IMG/VR virus record: IMGVR_UViG_3300021067_000082 | Span: 1 to 22,773 of that record | DNA length: 22,773 nucleotides | Strand: one strand, 5' to 3' | Origin: a virus | Shown: positions 1,998-21,984 of the stretch, one piece after another | How the letters are laid out: each line of letters opens with the position of its first letter | How positions within the stretch are numbered: the stretch's first letter is position 1 | Position numbers and translations under genes: made by a program | The notes under the pieces: generated by a model | Databases searched by the model: none | Told to the model about the DNA's origin: nothing | What the model saw: only the letters and a program-made list of their open reading frames with translations

Positions 1998-4430
1998 CTA
2001 GAGCCGCATCACGCGACCGGCCGAGCCCGCGGCCCCGTCGGGTCGGGTCCCGAATCCGTTGCCGCCGGCCCCGCCCGCGACCGTGACGGTGCCGCTGCCG
2101 CTCTCGGCGCCGACGATCAGGGCGACGACGCCGCCGCCACCACCGCCGCCGCCCGAACCGCCGGTCGGCGCCCCGTCGCCGCCAGCGCCGCCGTTCGCCT
2201 GGATGCTCCCGTTGTTCGTGAGCGAGGCCGTGGAGAGCAGCAGGTAGCCGCCGCCGCCGCCGCCCCCGCCGCCCTCGCTCGAGTTCGTGGAGCCGCCGCC
2301 GCCGCCGCCGCCGCCGCCGCGAACACGCGTCCAGGCGCCGCCGGAGAAGATCGCCCCGATGAGCGCGTTGGTGAGGATCGCGATCGCGTCCGAGCTTGAG
2401 GGCGCCGAGACCGTGCCGCCCGCCCCCGCCGCGTGCGTCGTGCCTGCGCCGCCCGCGCCGCCCGCGCCGCCGAGGCCATTCGTGACGTCGTCGCCGTCGA
2501 GTGCCGCGGCGCCGATCGCGCCGTCGCCGCCGTCGGCGCCGCCGAGGAACTCGCCGTCGGGCGCGCCTGCGCCGCCGGGCCCGACCGCCGACCCCATGGA
2601 GCCGTTGTCGCGGATCGTGCCGTTGTTGACGATGGACGTCTTGCCGAAGACGCCGAACCCGTTGCAGTCGAGCGCGACGGACGCGTCGATCACGAGCTCG
2701 TCGGCGAAGACGTGTCGGGTGAGCGTGTAGAGGGAGCCCGACCTCGTCGCGAAGTCCGGGTAATCCGTCGCGCCGTCGAGCGTGACGTCGCCGTCTCGGC
2801 CGTCGCCATGCGCGAGGGAGGACGAGCTCGAGCCGCCGCCGCCGCCCGTGAGGGCGGTGTCGGTGCCGTCCCAGTGGAGCATGAGCGCGCCGTCGTCGCG
2901 GAGCCACAGGCCCATGCCGGCCTGGACGACCGCCGCCGGCGCCTCCTCGGAGGGCATGCTCGGGATGAGCCCTTGCACCGCGGCGACGAAGTCCGCGGCG
3001 CACGTGCCTTCGCAGTCGAGGGCGGAGGTCGTCGTCGCGCCGTCCGAGTCGATCACGAACGACTTGTCGCGCGTGCGGATGTAGTCGGAGTGGCTCCCGC
3101 CCTGCCGGAGCTTGTCCGGGTCGAGGTAGATCAGGGCGCGCTCGTCCTCGACGTGCCCGACGAAGGCGCGCTCGACGTTGAGGATGCCGCGCACGGGATC
3201 GTCCTCGCCGCCCGACGGCCGCGTCGTGATCGCGCCGTCGCGGCCGACGAGGTACTGCGTCACCTCGAACACCGGGAGCGCGAGCTCGAGCCCCTCCTCG
3301 GGGGCCGTCCAGTGCGCGCCGATCCTCGAGGCCGCGGGCGGGTTCGTCTCCGAGTTCACGTGGACGAGGCCGATGTTCGACGCGAGGTACTCGGGCCCAC
3401 CGAACGCGGCGTGGATCACGCGGCGATCGGCGTTCAGGAACGACGTCAGGAGGTGGACCTGGTCCTCGAGGTAGCGCGCGCCGCCCGGCTGCCCCCACAT
3501 GGGGAGGCGGTAGTTCACGATGTTCGCGCCCGGCTCCGCGGTGGGCGCGCCGTTCGTCGGGACGATGAGCCCGCCGACGATCAGCGCCTCGTCGGTGCTC
3601 GTGACGGGGACCCACCCCCCGACCGGTTGGCCGGGTGTCGTCGGGTCCCACGTCTCGTTCGGGCACGGGACGCCGTTCGGGAACTCCTGCTCGTCGATCG
3701 GGCCGGTCGAGTAGGCGACCTCGGGGATCGAGAGCGGGTCGTAGAGACCGGGATCGCCCGTGTCGGGATCGTAGGCGCGGCCCTGTCCGCCTCCGCCGTC
3801 CGGGCCGCCGCCGGGTCCGCCGCCGCCGGGCCCACCGCCGCCCGGAGCGCCCGGGGCGCCCGGCTTCCCGTCCTTGCCATCCTTCCCGTCCTGGCCGTCC
3901 TTTCCGTCGCGGCCGCCGATGATGTAGACGGGCTTCGGCGGTGGCGTCGTGGGCGTGATCTCCGCGTCGATGTAACCGTAGGCGACGACCTGCCCCGTCT
4001 CGTGGCCGAGGACGCTGTCCTCGTTCGCCTCGCCGCTGTCCCAGGCGAAGCGCAGCTTGATCGGCTTGCCCTTCCGCGGGAACTTCACGCCGGCGACGTC
4101 GAGGTCGTCGAGCGCGAGACGACCGATCCACGGCGCGGCCTCGCCCTTCTCCTGCGTCGTCGGGGGATCGACCGGCGCGTCCGCCGCGACGACGACCGCT
4201 CCCGGGCTCGAGCCCGAGCCGATCGCCTTGCCCGAGCGCCGCGCCTGCACGAACTGCGCGTCGTGGCGGATCGGGAGCGTCCCGATCTCCTGGCCGTCGC
4301 GCCCGAGGAAGAGGTGGCCGAGCGACTCGTCGGGCGCGAAGACCGTCGAGAGCAGGCCGACCTTGATCGCCCCCACGACGTAGCCGCCGGGGATCGCCGC
4401 GCGCTCGACGTGGCCCTCGCCAGCGGTCAC
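1998..4430 (-). CDS. Collagen-like, polyglycine-rich tail fibre/adhesin
   Basis: The product has 810 residues. The GTG at 4430 overlaps the upstream TGA by four bases (GTGA). Residues 1-170 form a mixed domain that probably attaches the fibre. Residues 173-217 are a collagen-like Gly-X-Y stretch (GRDGKDGQDGKDGKDG, then GKPGAPGAPG) that grades into GGGGP repeats. Residues 220-600 are a non-repetitive central region. From about residue 610 to the end the protein is extremely Gly/Ala-rich, with NNGTI and NNGSI-ANGGAGG motifs and runs of eight or nine glycines around 702-727 and again near 770. Known phage fibres carry collagen-like trimerising stalks, and gp38-type adhesins of T4-like phages bind receptors through packed polyglycine II helices. 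I infer a receptor-binding fibre of this style. No C-type lectin variable region is visible. Confidence 0.8.
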   Translation of the reverse strand: MTAGEGHVERAAIPGGYVVGAIKVGLLSTVFAPDESLGHLFLGRDGQEIGTLPIRHDAQFVQARRSGKAIGSGSSPGAVVVAADAPVDPPTTQEKGEAAPWIGRLALDDLDVAGVKFPRKGKPIKLRFAWDSGEANEDSVLGHETGQVVAYGYIDAEITPTTPPPKPVYIIGGRDGKDGQDGKDGKDGKPGAPGAPGGGGPGGGGPGGGPDGGGGQGRAYDPDTGDPGLYDPLSIPEVAYSTGPIDEQEFPNGVPCPNETWDPTTPGQPVGGWVPVTSTDEALIVGGLIVPTNGAPTAEPGANIVNYRLPMWGQPGGARYLEDQVHLLTSFLNADRRVIHAAFGGPEYLASNIGLVHVNSETNPPAASRIGAHWTAPEEGLELALPVFEVTQYLVGRDGAITTRPSGGEDDPVRGILNVERAFVGHVEDERALIYLDPDKLRQGGSHSDYIRTRDKSFVIDSDGATTTSALDCEGTCAADFVAAVQGLIPSMPSEEAPAAVVQAGMGLWLRDDGALMLHWDGTDTALTGGGGGSSSSSLAHGDGRDGDVTLDGATDYPDFATRSGSLYTLTRHVFADELVIDASVALDCNGFGVFGKTSIVNNGTIRDNGSMGSAVGPGGAGAPDGEFLGGADGGDGAIGAAALDGDDVTNGLGGAGGAGGAGTTHAAGAGGTVSAPSSSDAIAILTNALIGAIFSGGAWTRVRGGGGGGGGGSTNSSEGGGGGGGGGYLLLSTASLTNNGSIQANGGAGGDGAPTGGSGGGGGGGGVVALIVGAESGSGTVTVAGGAGGNGFGTRPDGAAGSAGRVMRL
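2247..2321 (-). repeat. GGC/GCC trinucleotide tracts encoding polyglycine
   Basis: Two near-pure CCG tracts (about 2247-2274 and 2291-2321 on the plus strand) encode runs of eight or nine glycines in the fibre C-terminus, separated by STNSSE. Such tracts can change length by slippage and so alter the fibre. Confidence 0.7.
3780..3914 (-). repeat. Collagen-like Gly-X-Y coding repeat in the fibre
   Basis: This segment encodes fibre residues 173-217. It starts with four GKDG/GQDG units, then GKPGAPGAPG, then proline-spaced glycine blocks (GGGGPGGGGPGGGP). Such stretches form triple-helical stalks in phage fibres. Confidence 0.75.
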
Positions 4431-16048: not shown

Positions 16049-16603
16049 GCGGCCCTCCTCGTGGTGGTGGATCTCGTCGTAGAAGCTGCGCCGGAGCGCG
16101 TCCTCGTCGGCCCCGATGGCGACGTTGGACACCTCGAGCAGTTCCCATTCGTTCGCGATGTCGGCAGGGCCCTCGACGCGGGCGTCGCCGGCGCCGTCGT
16201 GCTCGCCCTCGCGGAGTCGGCGGACCTTCGCGCGGTTCACGACGTAGCCGATCGAGATCGCGCGGACGCTGCCGGCGCGGACCTTCTTCCAGACGCGCTC
16301 CGAGCGCTCGTCCTCGTCGTAGGTGATGACGGCGTGGAGCTCGCGTCCCTGGACGGTGACGGTCGCGCTCCCGATCACGTCCTCGACGGAAGAGCGGCGG
16401 TGCGAGTCGAGGACGACGGGGTTCCGCTTGTAGCGCTTGAGGCGTGCGCCCTTCATGCGCAGGACCTCGGGCGGTCCCCATGGCGACACGGCGACCGCGC
16501 GCTCCGTCGCGGCCACGAACGTCGCCTGCCTCTTCTCCTCGTCGATCCCGCGGACCTCGCACTCGAGCTGGCAGCGCAGGATCCTCTCGGCCCTCTGGCT
16601 CAC
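15560..16603 (-). CDS. Prohead maturation protease (S78/HK97 family) with scaffold-like tail
   Basis: The product has 347 residues. GTG 16603 overlaps the portal stop (GTGA), with GGAGG 5 bases upstream; the longer open frame to 17467 is a shadow of the portal gene. Residues 1-175 match the HK97-type prohead protease pattern. His68 sits in NPVVLDSHRR followed by IGSATV. Ser117 sits in VRAGSVRAISIGY, which fits the catalytic serine motif. Glu153/154 in ANEWELLEVSNVAIGADEDA completes the family pattern. The protease is expected to cleave scaffold and capsid N-termini during head maturation. Residues 186-347 are a linker plus a helical region that probably acts as scaffold and may also be made separately from an internal start. 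Confidence 0.85.
   Translation of the reverse strand: MSQRAERILRCQLECEVRGIDEEKRQATFVAATERAVAVSPWGPPEVLRMKGARLKRYKRNPVVLDSHRRSSVEDVIGSATVTVQGRELHAVITYDEDERSERVWKKVRAGSVRAISIGYVVNRAKVRRLREGEHDGAGDARVEGPADIANEWELLEVSNVAIGADEDALRRSFYDEIHHHEEGRMSSINYGAGVTGAPELGAPLGTPGERTSPLPTPPANPPVIPAPPSGPAPSSSAPGVQLAPAAVDALSRAAMREAHKREVLAITPRGLENVAERAIAQGLDFEATRKVLLEEQAKRFAPLGTPEPVAPTAPPQRGGAAQPPAAPAVREITPEVLLRSFESLND
16054..16060 (-). promoter_or_regulatory. Internal ribosome binding site in the protease gene
   Basis: On the minus strand GAGGAGG lies 5 bases before an in-frame ATG at 16048. It is stronger than most start sites of whole genes in this window and falls exactly at the border between the protease domain and the scaffold-like domain. 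Confidence 0.55.
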
Positions 16604-18234
16604 GCGGCCTCCTTCGCCGCCTTGCGCGGCGCGGGCATCTGCTCGATCGCGGGGCGGCGCGGCTGGGCGCCGGGCTTCGCCGCGGCGACCTCCTCGAGGG
16701 TGGGCAGCCCGAGCTCGGCGCGGAGATCGCGCTCGAACTTCTCGGCCACGAGCTTCTGGCGGACGAGCTCCTGCCAGTCGCGCCCGAGGCGCGCGGCCTC
16801 GATCTGGGGTGTCGTGAGGCCGAGCCGGAGCATGGCCTCGATCGCGTCGGCCTCGGCCTGGGGGTCGACCCACTGCTCCTCGTCGCCGATCCACTCGACG
16901 TGGACCAGGTCCTCGACCGTGACGCCGGCGGCGAGGAGGCGCGGGTTGCCCCGGAGCAGCTCGTCCTCGAGGACGAGGCGCCACTCCCACGAGAGCGACT
17001 GCGACGCGAAGTCGCTGCGCTCGGCGCGGAACGTCTGCCGATCGTCGATCTTGATGGTGCGCGCGCCGCTGTAGTTGACCCCCTCCCACATGCGGAGGAC
17101 GGCCTGGGGCGAGAGCCCGATCGCGGCGCCGATCCGGCGCGCGATGATGAGCGAGAGGACCTCGAAGTCGGCGTTCCCGGTGTTCGGGTTGAGGAACTGG
17201 ACTTCCTCGCCCGGGTACAGCCGGAAGAGCATTCCCGGGGTGAGCTTCTCGTCGAGCTGGTAGCCGTAATCGGTCGCGGTCAGCGAGATCAGGTCGGACG
17301 AGTCCGCCGCGGACGTGAGGAACGCCGAGAGGCACGCGCCGACCTGCTCCTTCTTGATCCGAGCGAGCATCAGGAGGTCGAGGTCGCGCAGGTCCTGGAG
17401 GATCGCGTGCGCGCGCGGCACACCGCGCGTCTGGCCCGGGCGCGTGATCTGCGCGCGGTCGTGGCACACCGACCAGGCCTCGACCCGGTCGAACGACGCG
17501 CGGCCGAACGGCGAGACGCGCTCGGCGAGCGACCCGACCTTCGTCCGCGCACCGGTGTCACCCGGGTGGTGCCGCAGGATCCAGTACGCGACGACGCGCG
17601 AGTGGCGGTCCTTCTCGATCCCGTCGACGATCCGTCCCTGCGGATCCGCCGGCGTCGCGTCCGCCGGCGTGCAGACGCGCTCGGCCTCGACGTTCTCGAT
17701 CCAGAGCGGCTCGCCCGGAGCGGCGACGGCCGCGCGCCGGAACACCTCGCCATCCTCGATCCGCTTGCCGTAGACGAGACGCTGGAGGAGGCCGTGCGAG
17801 AGCCCGCCCTCGCCCGGCGCGAGGTGGTTCGCGCGCGAGGCCCAGACCGCCTCGAGGGCGTCGTCCTTCGCGTCGTCGCCCGTGCGGGCCTGCGGGCGGA
17901 GCCCGGTGCCCACCACGCCGCGGACGAAGGTGTTGGTGATCCCGCACGCGAGCGCGTCGTCCCGGTTGGCCGCACGCGTGCGGTTGCGCAGCGTCGGCAG
18001 GTCCTGGAGCAGCTCGCCGTCCGCTGAGCGGTCGCTCGCGTTGAGCCAGGGCGTCGCGTTCTTGTCGTGCGAGGCGGCCTTGTAGCCCCGGAGGCGCGCC
18101 GCGAGGTCGAACGCTCGAGCGTACTGAGCGTCACGCTCCATGCTCCGCCGGTGGCGGCGAAGTAGCGCCCGCCGGCGGCCGCCGACGAGGCCAACGACGG
18201 CATCGCCGACGCGCTCATACCACGCGTCAGCCAT
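16600..18234 (-). CDS. Portal protein, lambda gpB family
   Basis: The product has 544 residues, close to lambda gpB (533). ATG 18234 lies inside the end of the gpW-like gene, an 8-base overlap. Typical features are an Arg-rich N-terminal helix and AANRDDALACGITNTFVRGV followed by VGTGLRPQ, the hallmark of lambda-type portals. Next comes a central part with GLLQRLVYGKRIEDGEVFRR and IDGIEKDRHSRVVAYW-type strands. RPGQTRGVPRAHAILQDLRD and LLMLARIKKEQVGACLSAFL match the long conserved helix. The Ala/Pro-rich C-terminus ends before the protease start. The portal forms the dodecameric ring through which DNA is packaged. Confidence 0.9.
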   Translation of the reverse strand: MADAWYERVGDAVVGLVGGRRRALLRRHRRSMERDAQYARAFDLAARLRGYKAASHDKNATPWLNASDRSADGELLQDLPTLRNRTRAANRDDALACGITNTFVRGVVGTGLRPQARTGDDAKDDALEAVWASRANHLAPGEGGLSHGLLQRLVYGKRIEDGEVFRRAAVAAPGEPLWIENVEAERVCTPADATPADPQGRIVDGIEKDRHSRVVAYWILRHHPGDTGARTKVGSLAERVSPFGRASFDRVEAWSVCHDRAQITRPGQTRGVPRAHAILQDLRDLDLLMLARIKKEQVGACLSAFLTSAADSSDLISLTATDYGYQLDEKLTPGMLFRLYPGEEVQFLNPNTGNADFEVLSLIIARRIGAAIGLSPQAVLRMWEGVNYSGARTIKIDDRQTFRAERSDFASQSLSWEWRLVLEDELLRGNPRLLAAGVTVEDLVHVEWIGDEEQWVDPQAEADAIEAMLRLGLTTPQIEAARLGRDWQELVRQKLVAEKFERDLRAELGLPTLEEVAAAKPGAQPRRPAIEQMPAPRKAAKEAA

Positions 18235-18511
18235 GGCTCACACCGAAGCGGATCGTGCGCCTGCGATCGCGCGTCTCGACCTCGCTCGCGGCCTCGGCCG
18301 CGGCGAGAGAGCGCTCCTCGGCGTCGAGGGACTCGACCTTCGGGAGCGACACCTCGACGCCGTCGATCAGGGCCTTGTCGGGGAGGACCACCCGGATCGC
18401 GCGCGCGTTCACGAGGTGCTCGCGCGCCGTGTCCCAGTCGCCTGCCGCTCGAGCGGTGGCGTACGACTGGAGCTCGGCCTGGAGGCCCGCGATCGTGAAC
18501 GTGAGGGGCAT
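18227..18511 (-). CDS. gpW-like head-tail joining protein
   Basis: The product has 94 residues. ATG 18511 is preceded by only a weak site (GAGCCGC). The layout is a helix (IAGLQAELQSYATARAAGDW), a second helix, a beta hairpin (ALIDGVEVSLPKVES), a charged helix and a basic tail containing RRR. This matches the helix-hairpin-helix-basic tail order of lambda gpW, and the gene sits between large terminase and portal just as W does. The protein is longer than lambda gpW (68 residues) because of the N-terminal extension. Known gpW plugs the portal after packaging and prepares the tail-docking surface. Confidence 0.6.
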   Translation of the reverse strand: MPLTFTIAGLQAELQSYATARAAGDWDTAREHLVNARAIRVVLPDKALIDGVEVSLPKVESLDAEERSLAAAEAASEVETRDRRRTIRFGVSHG

Positions 18512-18572: not shown

Positions 18573-18710
18573 TCAGAGCCCGAACGACCAGCGGACGACC
18601 TTCAGGAGAGTCCCAGCGGCGAACGTGATCCAGACGAGAAGCGGAAGCCAGAGGAACCCGAGCGCGGCGAGCACGGCGGCCACGTCCTCACCGAACCTCT
18701 TCTGCGGCAT
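18573..18710 (-). CDS. 45-residue single-pass membrane protein
   Basis: This frame is short but well supported. ATG 18710 is preceded by GGGAGG with a 7-base gap, and the ORF ends at TGA 18573. The product begins with a basic, polar stretch (MPQKRFGED). It then has a long hydrophobic helix at about residues 10-35 (VAAVLAALGFLWLPLLVWIT, FAAGTLL) and ends KVVRWSFGL. It fills an otherwise empty gap between the RMF/zinc-ribbon gene and the gpW-like gene. A lone membrane protein in the packaging module is unusual. Holin, pinholin or superinfection-exclusion roles are possible, but I cannot assign one. Confidence 0.65.
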   Translation of the reverse strand: MPQKRFGEDVAAVLAALGFLWLPLLVWITFAAGTLLKVVRWSFGL

Positions 18711-18722
18711 CGATCGACCTCC

Positions 18723-19214
18723 CTATCGCTGCAAGACGGGCAACTTGAACGTGTGCCCGCAGAGCCGGCACCGGAGCCGCGCGACGCCCTCGCCGATCCG
18801 CGTCGCGACGACGGCCTGTCCGGCGCTCGCGGAACGCACCGCGCGGCAACTGGGGCACGGCAGCCGCTGCCGTTCGTAGTGGGAGGGGAGTGGCTTGTCG
18901 CTCGGCCACTTCACGATGTCCGCGTTCAGGGCCCGGGGAGCGGGCGCGTCCGGGGGCGAGCTGGCGGGCGTGTCGGTCACCTGCGGGCTCGAGCTCTCCG
19001 TCGGCAGCTCGCTCACCGTCGGCAGCTCGCCGGCGTTCCAGCCCTCGAGCCATGCCGCGCGGATCGGCGCGCCGTGGTAACTGCCGAACGGACACGACTC
19101 GCGCGGCGCGCCGCGCGCGCGAGCTTCTCGCCCGCGTTCGCGTGCGTCGGAGATCAGACGAGCCTCCTTCCGAGCCTCTCGCCTCGCCTGCTTCAGCGTC
19201 CGATCCCGGGCCAC
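18723..19214 (-). CDS. RMF-like domain fused to a zinc ribbon
   Basis: The product has 163 residues. GTG 19214 has GGGAGG 5 bases upstream and overlaps the end of the large terminase gene by 22 bases. Residues about 24-62 (ARERGREARARGAPRESCPF, then IRAAWLEGWNAG) match the ribosome modulation factor pattern: A-x-x-x-G, then CP[YF], then R--W--GW--A/G. A Ser/Thr/Pro linker (63-95) contains a duplicated ELPTVS/ELPTES. The C-terminus carries a four-cysteine zinc ribbon: Cys120, Cys123, Cys149 and Cys152, then HTFKLPV. RMF itself is only about 55 residues and dimerises stationary-phase ribosomes; the plasmid protein CrpP is a disputed relative. The role in this phage is unknown. Modulating host ribosomes or binding nucleic acid are both conceivable. 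Confidence 0.75.
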   Translation of the reverse strand: MARDRTLKQARREARKEARLISDARERGREARARGAPRESCPFGSYHGAPIRAAWLEGWNAGELPTVSELPTESSSPQVTDTPASSPPDAPAPRALNADIVKWPSDKPLPSHYERQRLPCPSCRAVRSASAGQAVVATRIGEGVARLRCRLCGHTFKLPVLQR

Positions 19215-21076
19215 TCGTCCCTCCCGTCGCGAGCTCGCGACCGCGGCTCACGATCGGTGGGTGCCCTGACGCGAACGGCCCAGGTCGGGCCGGAGCGGTC
19301 CTCGACGCGGCTGAACTCGGCGAGCCAGCACTGATATCTGGAGCAGTCCCAGAGGTGGTTCGCGGCGCTCTGCGAGCGCTTCTGCCAGAGCCACCGACTG
19401 CCCGTCGGCGTCTGCACGAGGACCTTTTGCTCGGAGGTCATCTGGCGCGTGTAGGCCTTGTCGCCGGCGCCCTCGCACTCCTCCCAGACGACGGGCTCCG
19501 CGTTGATGAGCGCCGCGAGCTCGTCGGACCAGTACGTCTTGTTCACGAGGTGCAGGTCGATCTCGTCGGGCTTGTTCTGGCTCACCCGGACGGACGTCGT
19601 ACGCCACGGGACCTGCAGCGCGTCCTTGTCGGCCTCGCCCTTGATCGCGAACGCCCTCCGCGTGCGCCGCACGAGGCGGTACACGTCGCGCGTGCGCGAG
19701 CCGTCGGGCGTCTCCATGCCCCCGCCCGAGTCGATCGCGAGCGCGTGCGTCGTCGCGCGCAGGGCGAGGCCGCCCTCGATCGCCCAACGACGCCTGAGCG
19801 TCGCCTCGAGGAGCGCTTCCTCGTCCTCGGCCCAGCCCCAGTCGAGGAGTCGGGAGCGCGCGCCGAGACCCCAGGCGCGGCAGACCCACCACCACCCGTC
19901 CTCTTGCGTGTCGGCCGTGGCGAGGACCGTCGTCGCCCATGAAGGGACGAGGCCGCGCGGGTGGATGGCGCGCGCCTCGAAGGTGGACGCGGCGATCGCG
20001 CTCGAGCTCGCGCGCCAGGGTCGCCCCAGCGAGCCGTTGTAGAAGCCCTGGATCGCCGAGGGCGTGAGGCAGCGCAGGAACTTCACCACGAGCGCGCTGA
20101 GCGTCGTCTTCCAGTGGAACCACTCGGGCACGTGGAACGCGCGGCGCTTTTCAGTGGGCTCGGCGCCGGCGTCCGGGATCCACCCCGCGCCCGGCCTCCA
20201 CTGGTCGAGGTGCGGCTGCAGCCGTCCCGCACAGCCGGCGACGCGGCACTCGACCCACGCGGACTGGTCGCGCTCGATCACGGCCGCGAGGCGCAGGCGC
20301 TCCTCGGGGGCGCTCGGCGCGCTCTCCCACCCGCCGCCCGGCCAGCGCACGCGCGTCTCGTCGATCGCCTGGACGCTGTCGCACGTGGGGCAGGGCACCG
20401 CGAAGACGCGGCGGTCGAGGACCTGGCCGTGGTTGACGCAGATGATGTCGCCGTCGGCCTTCGGCGAGGACAGGAGCACGATCAAGCCGAGAGGACCGAA
20501 GACCTTCGTCCGCTCCTTGCAGAAGTCCACGGGGTTCGTCTCGCCGTGGACCTGCCAGCGGTACTTCGCCGCCTCGTCGAGGATCACCCTGCGAAACGGG
20601 TCGCTCGAGAGCGACTGGGGCGAGCCGGCCCAGCCGATCACGATGCGCATGCCGTTCGTCAGGCGCATCTCGAGTAGGGTCGTGTCCGAGCGCCGCGGCG
20701 AGACGAGCTCCCGGAGCGAGGGCGTGCTCCGGAACATGGCCCGGAGCTTCTCCATGGCCTTCTCCGCGGCTTCGCGGTTGGCCATGACCCACAAGACGTC
20801 GCCCGGATCGTGCAGCGCCCAGCGGCCGATCGCGCAGCGGATCAACTCCGAGACGCCCATCTGGGCGCCCTTCAGGATCACGACCCAGCCGATCAGCGGG
20901 TCGGCAAGCGCCTCGAGGACCTCGACCTGCCACGGGATCGACCGCCAAGGGCCCGGGTCGGGGCTCTCCTCGGCCGAGAGGACGCGCTCGAGCTCGGCCC
21001 AGGCCGCGCCCCCGAGGCGCTCGCGCGGGAGCCAGGACGCCGCGACCTCGAGGACCCAGGCGGGCGCGTCCACCAC
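19193..21076 (-). CDS. Terminase large subunit, GpA family
   Basis: The product has 627 residues (lambda gpA has 641). GTG 21076 directly follows the upstream TAG. The ATPase half has a Walker A-like loop KGAQMGVSE at 69-77, after an adenine-motif-like PWQVEVLEALAD, and Walker B VILDEA at 164-169. A zinc-ribbon insertion uses Cys229, Cys232, Cys277 and Cys282, as in GpA proteins. The nuclease half has RNase H-type acidic residues: Asp389 in LATADTQEDGWWW and Asp449 in ALAIDSGGG. It cuts concatemeric DNA and drives it through the portal, with the small subunit encoded three genes upstream. Confidence 0.92.
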   Translation of the reverse strand: MVDAPAWVLEVAASWLPRERLGGAAWAELERVLSAEESPDPGPWRSIPWQVEVLEALADPLIGWVVILKGAQMGVSELIRCAIGRWALHDPGDVLWVMANREAAEKAMEKLRAMFRSTPSLRELVSPRRSDTTLLEMRLTNGMRIVIGWAGSPQSLSSDPFRRVILDEAAKYRWQVHGETNPVDFCKERTKVFGPLGLIVLLSSPKADGDIICVNHGQVLDRRVFAVPCPTCDSVQAIDETRVRWPGGGWESAPSAPEERLRLAAVIERDQSAWVECRVAGCAGRLQPHLDQWRPGAGWIPDAGAEPTEKRRAFHVPEWFHWKTTLSALVVKFLRCLTPSAIQGFYNGSLGRPWRASSSAIAASTFEARAIHPRGLVPSWATTVLATADTQEDGWWWVCRAWGLGARSRLLDWGWAEDEEALLEATLRRRWAIEGGLALRATTHALAIDSGGGMETPDGSRTRDVYRLVRRTRRAFAIKGEADKDALQVPWRTTSVRVSQNKPDEIDLHLVNKTYWSDELAALINAEPVVWEECEGAGDKAYTRQMTSEQKVLVQTPTGSRWLWQKRSQSAANHLWDCSRYQCWLAEFSRVEDRSGPTWAVRVRAPTDREPRSRARDGRDEWPGIGR

Positions 21077-21616
21077 CTACGCACCGCTCCCGCGCGGGTA
21101 GAGGAACACGTAACCGTCGCGGATCGCGAGCGTGGTCCCGTCTTCCGCCGGCTCGATCGCGAACGACTGGGGCGGGGCGCTCTGGTGGAGCCACTCGCCG
21201 CCGCGCCGGACGTACACCGACGTCGCGTCCTGAACGCGCACGGACGTCTCGTGACGTCGCCGCGCTGCGTGCCCAGCCCCCGCGCGCTCGACGAGCTGCT
21301 CGAGGAAGCCGTTCGCCGCGCGGCGGGGCGGGCGCTCGTCCTCGAGGCCCGCGCGGCGGCGCGCACGCGCGCGCTCGACGAACACCCGCGCGAGGGTGTC
21401 CTCCGCCGCAAGACGGACGAGGGCCCGCGCGAGACGGCGACCCTCGCGGCGCTCGAGCACCCTCTGCGCCCGACGACGCCGCGCCTCCTCGCGATCCGTG
21501 GGGAGCACGGCGCGGGCGGCGCGCGCGATCTCGTCGAGCGTCTCTCCGGTCCGCTGACCGGAGCGGGCGAGGCGCTCGATCCTCGCGATCGCGAGCTCGA
21601 GGCTCCGGCGGTTCAT
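21077..21616 (-). CDS. Arg-rich helical protein, unknown function
   Basis: The product has 179 residues. ATG 21616 overlaps the upstream stop (ATGA). Residues 1-110 are Arg/Ala/Glu-rich and helical (LELAIARIERLARSGQRTGE, ARAVLPTDREEARRRRAQRV). Residues 125-179 form several strands (SVRVQDATSVYVRRGGEWLH, FAIEPAEDGTTLAIRDGYVF). The basic helical part could bind DNA or the terminase. The product fits no family I know. It sits between the terminase subunits and is translationally coupled on its upstream side; its stop touches the large terminase start. Confidence 0.65.
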   Translation of the reverse strand: MNRRSLELAIARIERLARSGQRTGETLDEIARAARAVLPTDREEARRRRAQRVLERREGRRLARALVRLAAEDTLARVFVERARARRRAGLEDERPPRRAANGFLEQLVERAGAGHAARRRHETSVRVQDATSVYVRRGGEWLHQSAPPQSFAIEPAEDGTTLAIRDGYVFLYPRGSGA

Positions 21617-21984
21617 CCCGAGCGCGGCTTGTCGTGGAGGAAGGCGTGCACGCTGAACGGCTGCGCGGGGCGCTTCCTCTGCGTGACCTGGAGCGCGGGG
21701 ATCTCGAAGCCGTCGCGCACGACGTCGAACGACGGGTGGCCGAGGACGACGTTCACGAGGCGCGTCGCGACGTCGAACCAGACGGCATGGAGGGTCACGT
21801 CCTGGGGCACGGGCTCGAGCTCGGACAGGCAGGCCCGCACGCGCGCCTCGAGGCCGAGGCGGTCACGTCGGTCCCAGACGGCGAGGTAGTCGCCGGCGAG
21901 ATCGTGCATCACGGTGTGCGGGATCCGGACGAGGACCTCGCGCCGAGGAAACCGGAGCACGTCGACGTTCACCCACGTGTTCAA
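21613..21984 (-). CDS. Conserved-looking small protein between terminase subunits, unknown
   Basis: The product has 123 residues. ATG 21984 overlaps the small-terminase stop (ATGA). The chain looks compact and beta-rich (NTWVNVDVLRFPRREVLVRI, VTLHAVWFDVATRLVNVVLG), with a central helix (LEARVRACLSELEP) and no membrane segment or signal. The repeated hydrophobic strands and the Phe-Asp-Val motifs suggest a folded domain, not noise. I do not recognise it. Co-translation with the small terminase suggests a packaging accessory. Confidence 0.65.
   Translation of the reverse strand: MNTWVNVDVLRFPRREVLVRIPHTVMHDLAGDYLAVWDRRDRLGLEARVRACLSELEPVPQDVTLHAVWFDVATRLVNVVLGHPSFDVVRDGFEIPALQVTQRKRPAQPFSVHAFLHDKPRSG

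Follow-up and report, generated by a model that had tools for sequence, protein, structure and literature searches.

The window, as the whole stretch of DNA analysed here is called, is a 22.8-kb IMG/VR virus record with a G+C content of 72%. According to the ORF list and the reading of the sequence, its minus strand carries an ORF that begins with a GTG codon and encodes a protein of 163 residues, in which a domain of the RMF/CrpP family is followed by a linker and a likely zinc ribbon (Table 1). RMF is known from bacteria, where it silences ribosomes under stress.

Table 1. Features of the RMF-ribbon gene and of the neighbouring genes of the window
Feature	Position	Strand	Basis
Whole gene: RMF-like domain, linker and likely zinc ribbon	18723..19214	-	ORF list; codon log-odds favour the frame on its own strand
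Shine-Dalgarno-like GGGAGGG, 4 bases upstream of the GTG start	19219..19225	-	sequence reading
RMF/CrpP-family domain, residues 20-62	19029..19157	-	PF04957 28.0 bits, NF041886 30.3 bits; AlphaFold helices 2-33 and 49-61, pLDDT about 87-97
Acidic linker rich in P/S/T/A, residues 63-112, predicted flexible	18879..19028	-	net charge -4 over 63-110; block pLDDT mostly 52-59
Likely C-terminal zinc ribbon, residues 113-160, CPSC-25-CRLC	18735..18878	-	Cys 120/123/149/152; three predicted strands within 135-157; Zn_ribbon_4 19.6 bits (below cut-off)
Large terminase, GpA family; 3' end overlaps the start of the RMF-ribbon gene by 22 bases	19193..21076	-	PF05876 142.8 bits, PF20454 111.3 bits
45-aa membrane-protein-like ORF directly downstream of the RMF-ribbon gene, GGAGG before ATG	18573..18710	-	sequence reading, translation
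94-aa ORF in the gpW (head completion) position	18227..18511	-	position only; no family match
Portal protein, lambda family	16600..18234	-	PF05136 224 bits, TIGR01539 180.7 bits

The mean codon log-odds of the RMF-ribbon frame is -0.001, compared with -0.51 and -0.52 for the other two frames of the same strand. The second-best value of the six frames is that of frame 1 on the opposite strand (-0.035), which is nearly equal, and codon usage by itself is therefore insufficient for choosing the frame. The idea that the ORF is not a real gene was rejected on the profile match described below, the Shine-Dalgarno site and the position in the operon, together with the frame-specific codon usage.

The gene lies between a GpA-family large terminase and a lambda-type portal protein, as the sequence-only reading had proposed, and is separated from the portal gene by the membrane-protein-like ORF and the ORF in the gpW position. 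No promoter or terminator pattern specific to the gene was found, the RNA structure downstream of it is no better than that of shuffled sequences, and the defence-system models gave no match. The nearest terminase relatives (24-28% identity) are not accompanied by an RMF-ribbon gene; in these relatives the terminase-portal interval is either short or holds other inserts, for example, in Pararheinheimera phage KLER1-1, a methyltransferase. With the terminase as query no relative was found among the viral contigs, and the alignment of the distant terminases was too diverse to be used as a search query. The RMF-ribbon gene is most readily understood as an insert specific to its lineage, placed in the variable terminase-portal interval and now a member of the operon, since it starts within the end of the terminase gene and no promoter or terminator pattern sets it apart. 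Because of this overlap inside the packaging operon, the protein is probably produced along with those for packaging. Elsewhere on the minus strand of the window, two genes of 179 and 123 residues with overlapping starts (21077-21616 and 21613-21984) are found between the small and large terminase, without a clear family match, and a long ORF (1998-4430), which has glycine-rich repeats and a GxxGxx stretch resembling collagen, possibly encodes a tail fibre.

The N-terminal region passes the cut-off of the NCBIfam family NF041886 (30.3 bits, cut-off 28, E 2.3e-7, residues 24-62) and, barely, that of the Pfam RMF family PF04957 (28.0 bits, cut-off 27.9, E 2.2e-6, residues 20-62), which bears out the RMF pattern that had been noticed at residues 24-62 and answers the proposed comparison with Pfam RMF. 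The scores remain below the cut-offs of the RMF equivalog NF011162 (24.8 versus 40 bits), the phage equivalog NF041887, Rmf_like_phage (20.9 versus 40), and CrpP, NF033696 (16.9 versus 55). Relatives were gathered by scanning viral-contig DNA for the pattern CP[FY]...R-xx-W-xx-GW, after which a profile was built from the matches; most pattern matches in two scans were chance occurrences or host RMF genes. In the resulting alignment of the window protein with 42 phage RMF-like domains, the invariant C, P, R, W, G and W are an artefact of the search pattern, which demands them. Positions outside the pattern are also conserved, namely G28 (39/41), A31 (34/42) and G35 (28/42), and the profile of the window protein and the 42 phage domains recovers known RMF structures at E 2.4e-13.

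This is also in agreement with the predicted fold. The AlphaFold model made with the phage-domain alignment has helices at residues 2-33 and 49-61 (block pLDDT 87-97; about 95 for the RMF helix pair), which is the two-helix arrangement of RMF that had been anticipated for the modelled domain. The top Foldseek match comes from the hibernating E. coli ribosome (9iot), whose RMF superimposes at 0.7 A over 42 columns with a probability of 0.99, the E value of 0.55 reflecting the small size of the domain. The top three matches of VIA-align are likewise RMF chains (Z 6.8, 5.4 and 5.1). On the evidence of profiles, alignment and fold, the kinship of the window protein to RMF is real.

The window protein shares with E. 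coli RMF the helix-linker-helix fold, the G-xx-A-xxx-G and CP[YF] motifs, the R-xx-W-xx-GW core and a net charge of +7, whereas E. coli RMF consists of 55 residues and the window protein of 163, with the linker and the putative zinc ribbon added, and is encoded in a phage operon. Similarly, it passes the broad cut-off of the Rmf/CrpP family NF041886 but has a two-domain architecture. In a review of RMF, R3, K5 and R11 are assigned to ribosome binding and G23 and R45 to dimerisation (PMC8778775). The equivalents in the window protein are R15, E17, D23, G35 and N60, in a register that is less certain before residue 20, such that two of the five are kept (R15 and G35) and K5, R11 and R45 are replaced by E, D and N; the set of residues reported for RMF function is thus not preserved. 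The Pseudomonas RMF homologue PA3049 (BatR), a closer relative, has been reported to be without a role in hibernation and to interact with the kinase SrkA (PMC13411936), so that a hibernation function is not implied by RMF kinship.

It is possible, although somewhat unlikely, that the window protein is a ribosome-directed factor. Its family and fold match to RMF as bound on the ribosome, its charge of +7, found in E. coli RMF and unlike that of most phage relatives, and the Shine-Dalgarno-like sites on the genes of the window phage would agree with such a role, but this has to be weighed against the match of only R3 and G23 among the five residues, the score far below the RMF equivalog cut-off and the report on PA3049. 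The last three points, together with the association of the phage relatives with RecT or replication genes described below, weaken the ribosome-hibernation part of the earlier proposal: ribosome dimerisation is unlikely, and a role in translation is possible.

The linker between the RMF-like part and the C-terminal region is disordered in the AlphaFold model. The C-terminal CxxC-25-CxxC arrangement (Cys 120, 123, 149 and 152), as first described, is confirmed, and a double CxxC motif of this sort arises in 148 of 200,000 shuffles of the window protein. In the model the two CxxC pairs are placed on a small beta sheet (strands 135-140, 144-149 and 155-157), as is characteristic of a zinc ribbon, at moderate confidence, lower than for the helices. 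The closest named family, Zn_ribbon_4, gives 19.6 bits against a cut-off of 30.3, and none of the curated NCBIfam and Pfam cut-offs is reached by the C-terminal region. In structure it weakly matches (Z 2-3.5) the zinc ribbons found in ribosomal proteins, RNase P, NrdR and RNA polymerase subunits, which would point to the ribbon fold and nothing more specific. A zinc ribbon is likely, as judged from the motif and the model; this part of the sequence-only reading holds for fold and motif, but the scores lie under the Pfam cut-offs. An origin of the ribbon as a copy of the terminase's own CPxC region was also considered and found unconvincing (just 9/23 identities, E 0.046). The net charge is +7 for residues 1-62, equal to that of the whole E. 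coli RMF, -4 for the linker and +8 for residues 111-163, whereas the phage RMF-like domains are near neutral (mean -0.1).

No full-length relative of the window protein was found by tblastn in phages or by peptide-pattern scans of viral and genome contigs, and the ribbon alone gave nothing better than E 3 against phages. Scans for WLxGW with two CxxC pairs did not find the layout of the window protein again, and the survey that had been suggested for the same two-domain layout adjoining a terminase did not recover it in the same form. The collections searched provided no full-length homologue in which the cysteines or the fusion could be compared.

The RMF-like domain itself has many phage relatives. 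Collecting RMF-like proteins of phage or prophage type gave a non-redundant set of at least 64, among them the window protein and a few from genome contigs. Most have a length of 46-120 residues, and they mostly stand alone. A recheck of 40 records with Pfam RMF gave 39 matches, 24 of them above the cut-off. No match to the RMF family was found in 195 genomes of the phylum of the Archangium locus. The stand-alone proteins of the phrog_10492 type (for example those of 51-56 residues in loci L264 and L283) have the same core as the window protein, with at most 53% identity over 36 residues, but stand-alone phage members are single-domain, mostly near neutral and mostly encoded beside replication genes, unlike the window protein. 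Among the 25 commonest neighbour families, DNA helicases, primases and exonucleases lead around the phage RMF-like genes, whereas portal, head and endolysin families lead around random points in control contigs, a rough contrast that is based on these 25 families per set. The place of the window gene in a packaging operon is atypical for its kin, because phage RMF-like genes mostly neighbour such replication-type genes.

RMF-like domains also occur at the C-terminus of RecT-type phage recombinases, at L452:3296-4276 (minus strand) and in L348, L280, L244 and L422; the fusion of L452, the one that was scanned, matches Pfam RecT with 49.3 bits and RMF with 34.6 bits. Another tail of this type (24.8 bits, below the cut-off) is carried by a 367-residue phrog_3657 protein near a YqaJ/RecE-like exonuclease (L202:6289-7392, minus strand). 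Two further sequences have NPY in their RMF-like stretch: a predicted membrane protein with NPY in place of CPY in its tail, in a genome of the order of the Cupriavidus locus (L462:1468-2214, minus strand), and an OmpA/Pal-type-looking lipoprotein in the genome of the Holophagaceae locus (L188). RMF-like domains are common in phages, mostly alone, and also fused to RecT and, in the window protein, to a putative zinc ribbon.

Like the window protein, two other proteins combine an RMF domain above the Pfam cut-off with a four-cysteine cluster. The 115-residue protein of L199:821-1168 has RMF followed by CxxC-15-CxxC, the pairs being 15 residues apart as compared with 25 in the window protein, and its gene adjoins a DUF5131 gene in an early prophage-like region, where a methyltransferase and a repressor are also close by. 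In the 97-residue protein of L448:4893-5186 (minus strand) the cysteines, C-x5-C...C-x2-C, precede the RMF domain (34.4 bits), and the gene is located about 1 kb upstream of a GpA terminase. The fusions in L199 and L448 are probably independent of that in the window, since orders and spacings differ.

The L448 protein bears on the alternative that the window protein is an accessory of DNA packaging or DNA handling, which would bind the DNA of the phage, or the complex of terminase and portal, while heads are being filled. This alternative, which we regard as unlikely, is favoured also by the location between terminase and portal with the start overlapping the terminase stop, and by the RecT-RMF fusions, which link the domain to DNA work. 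However, the nearest terminase relatives manage without the gene, so that it is not required for packaging, and the interval also holds unrelated inserts such as the methyltransferase. An equally unlikely alternative is that the RMF-like part serves as a general-purpose tail for protein contacts, through which a partner from the host or the phage is recruited, the zinc ribbon carrying the activity. The module is indeed joined to very different proteins (RecT, the phrog_3657 protein, the membrane protein and the OmpA-like lipoprotein), and PA3049/BatR is reported to bind SrkA (PMC13411936), but no partner is known for any phage member, and the unusually basic character of the window protein fits nucleic acid.

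The reading that we place first, with about an even chance of being right, is that the protein is an accessory of the phage and carries two modules for binding nucleic acid. At its N-terminus a strongly basic RMF-type helix pair and at its C-terminus a basic, presumably zinc-holding ribbon, joined by a flexible acidic linker, would both bind nucleic acid; the protein would be expressed late, together with the packaging proteins, and would handle DNA or RNA in late infection rather than form 100S ribosome dimers. Zinc binding, nucleic-acid binding by both ends and late expression are inferred; the reading is favoured by the family cut-offs passed, the profile match to RMF structures and the fold match to RMF on the ribosome (Z 6.8, 0.7 A), the charges of the ends (+7 and +8) and the linker (-4), the matches of the C-terminal part to the zinc ribbons named above, the RecT fusions and the helicase, primase and exonuclease neighbours of related domains, and the overlapping operon free of promoter or terminator patterns. 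Against this, the ribbon scores lie under the curated cut-offs and its structural matches are weak, no homologue was found in which cysteines or fusion are conserved, and, with a mean charge of -0.1, the phage family need not bind nucleic acid, so that a protein-protein role is possible. Of the earlier suggestion that the protein works late, on ribosomes or on nucleic acid, the nucleic-acid part is plausible, both ends being basic, and the hibernation part is weakened.

The nucleic-acid-binding reading and its three alternatives overlap. A bolder reading, which we hold to be less probable than any of them, is that a ribosome-silencing fold was captured and combined with a zinc ribbon in a packaging operon, where it would reprogramme host ribosomes late in infection, as one branch of a large phage RMF-like family that is also found on recombinases. 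No functional test of any phage RMF-like member was found in the literature searched. The window protein lends itself to such a test, as the RMF fold and charge are kept, the reported functional residues are mostly lost and a second module is added; its binding to ribosomes and to nucleic acid would tell whether RMF was borrowed by phages to act on ribosomes or whether its fold was put to new use in contacts with DNA or protein.
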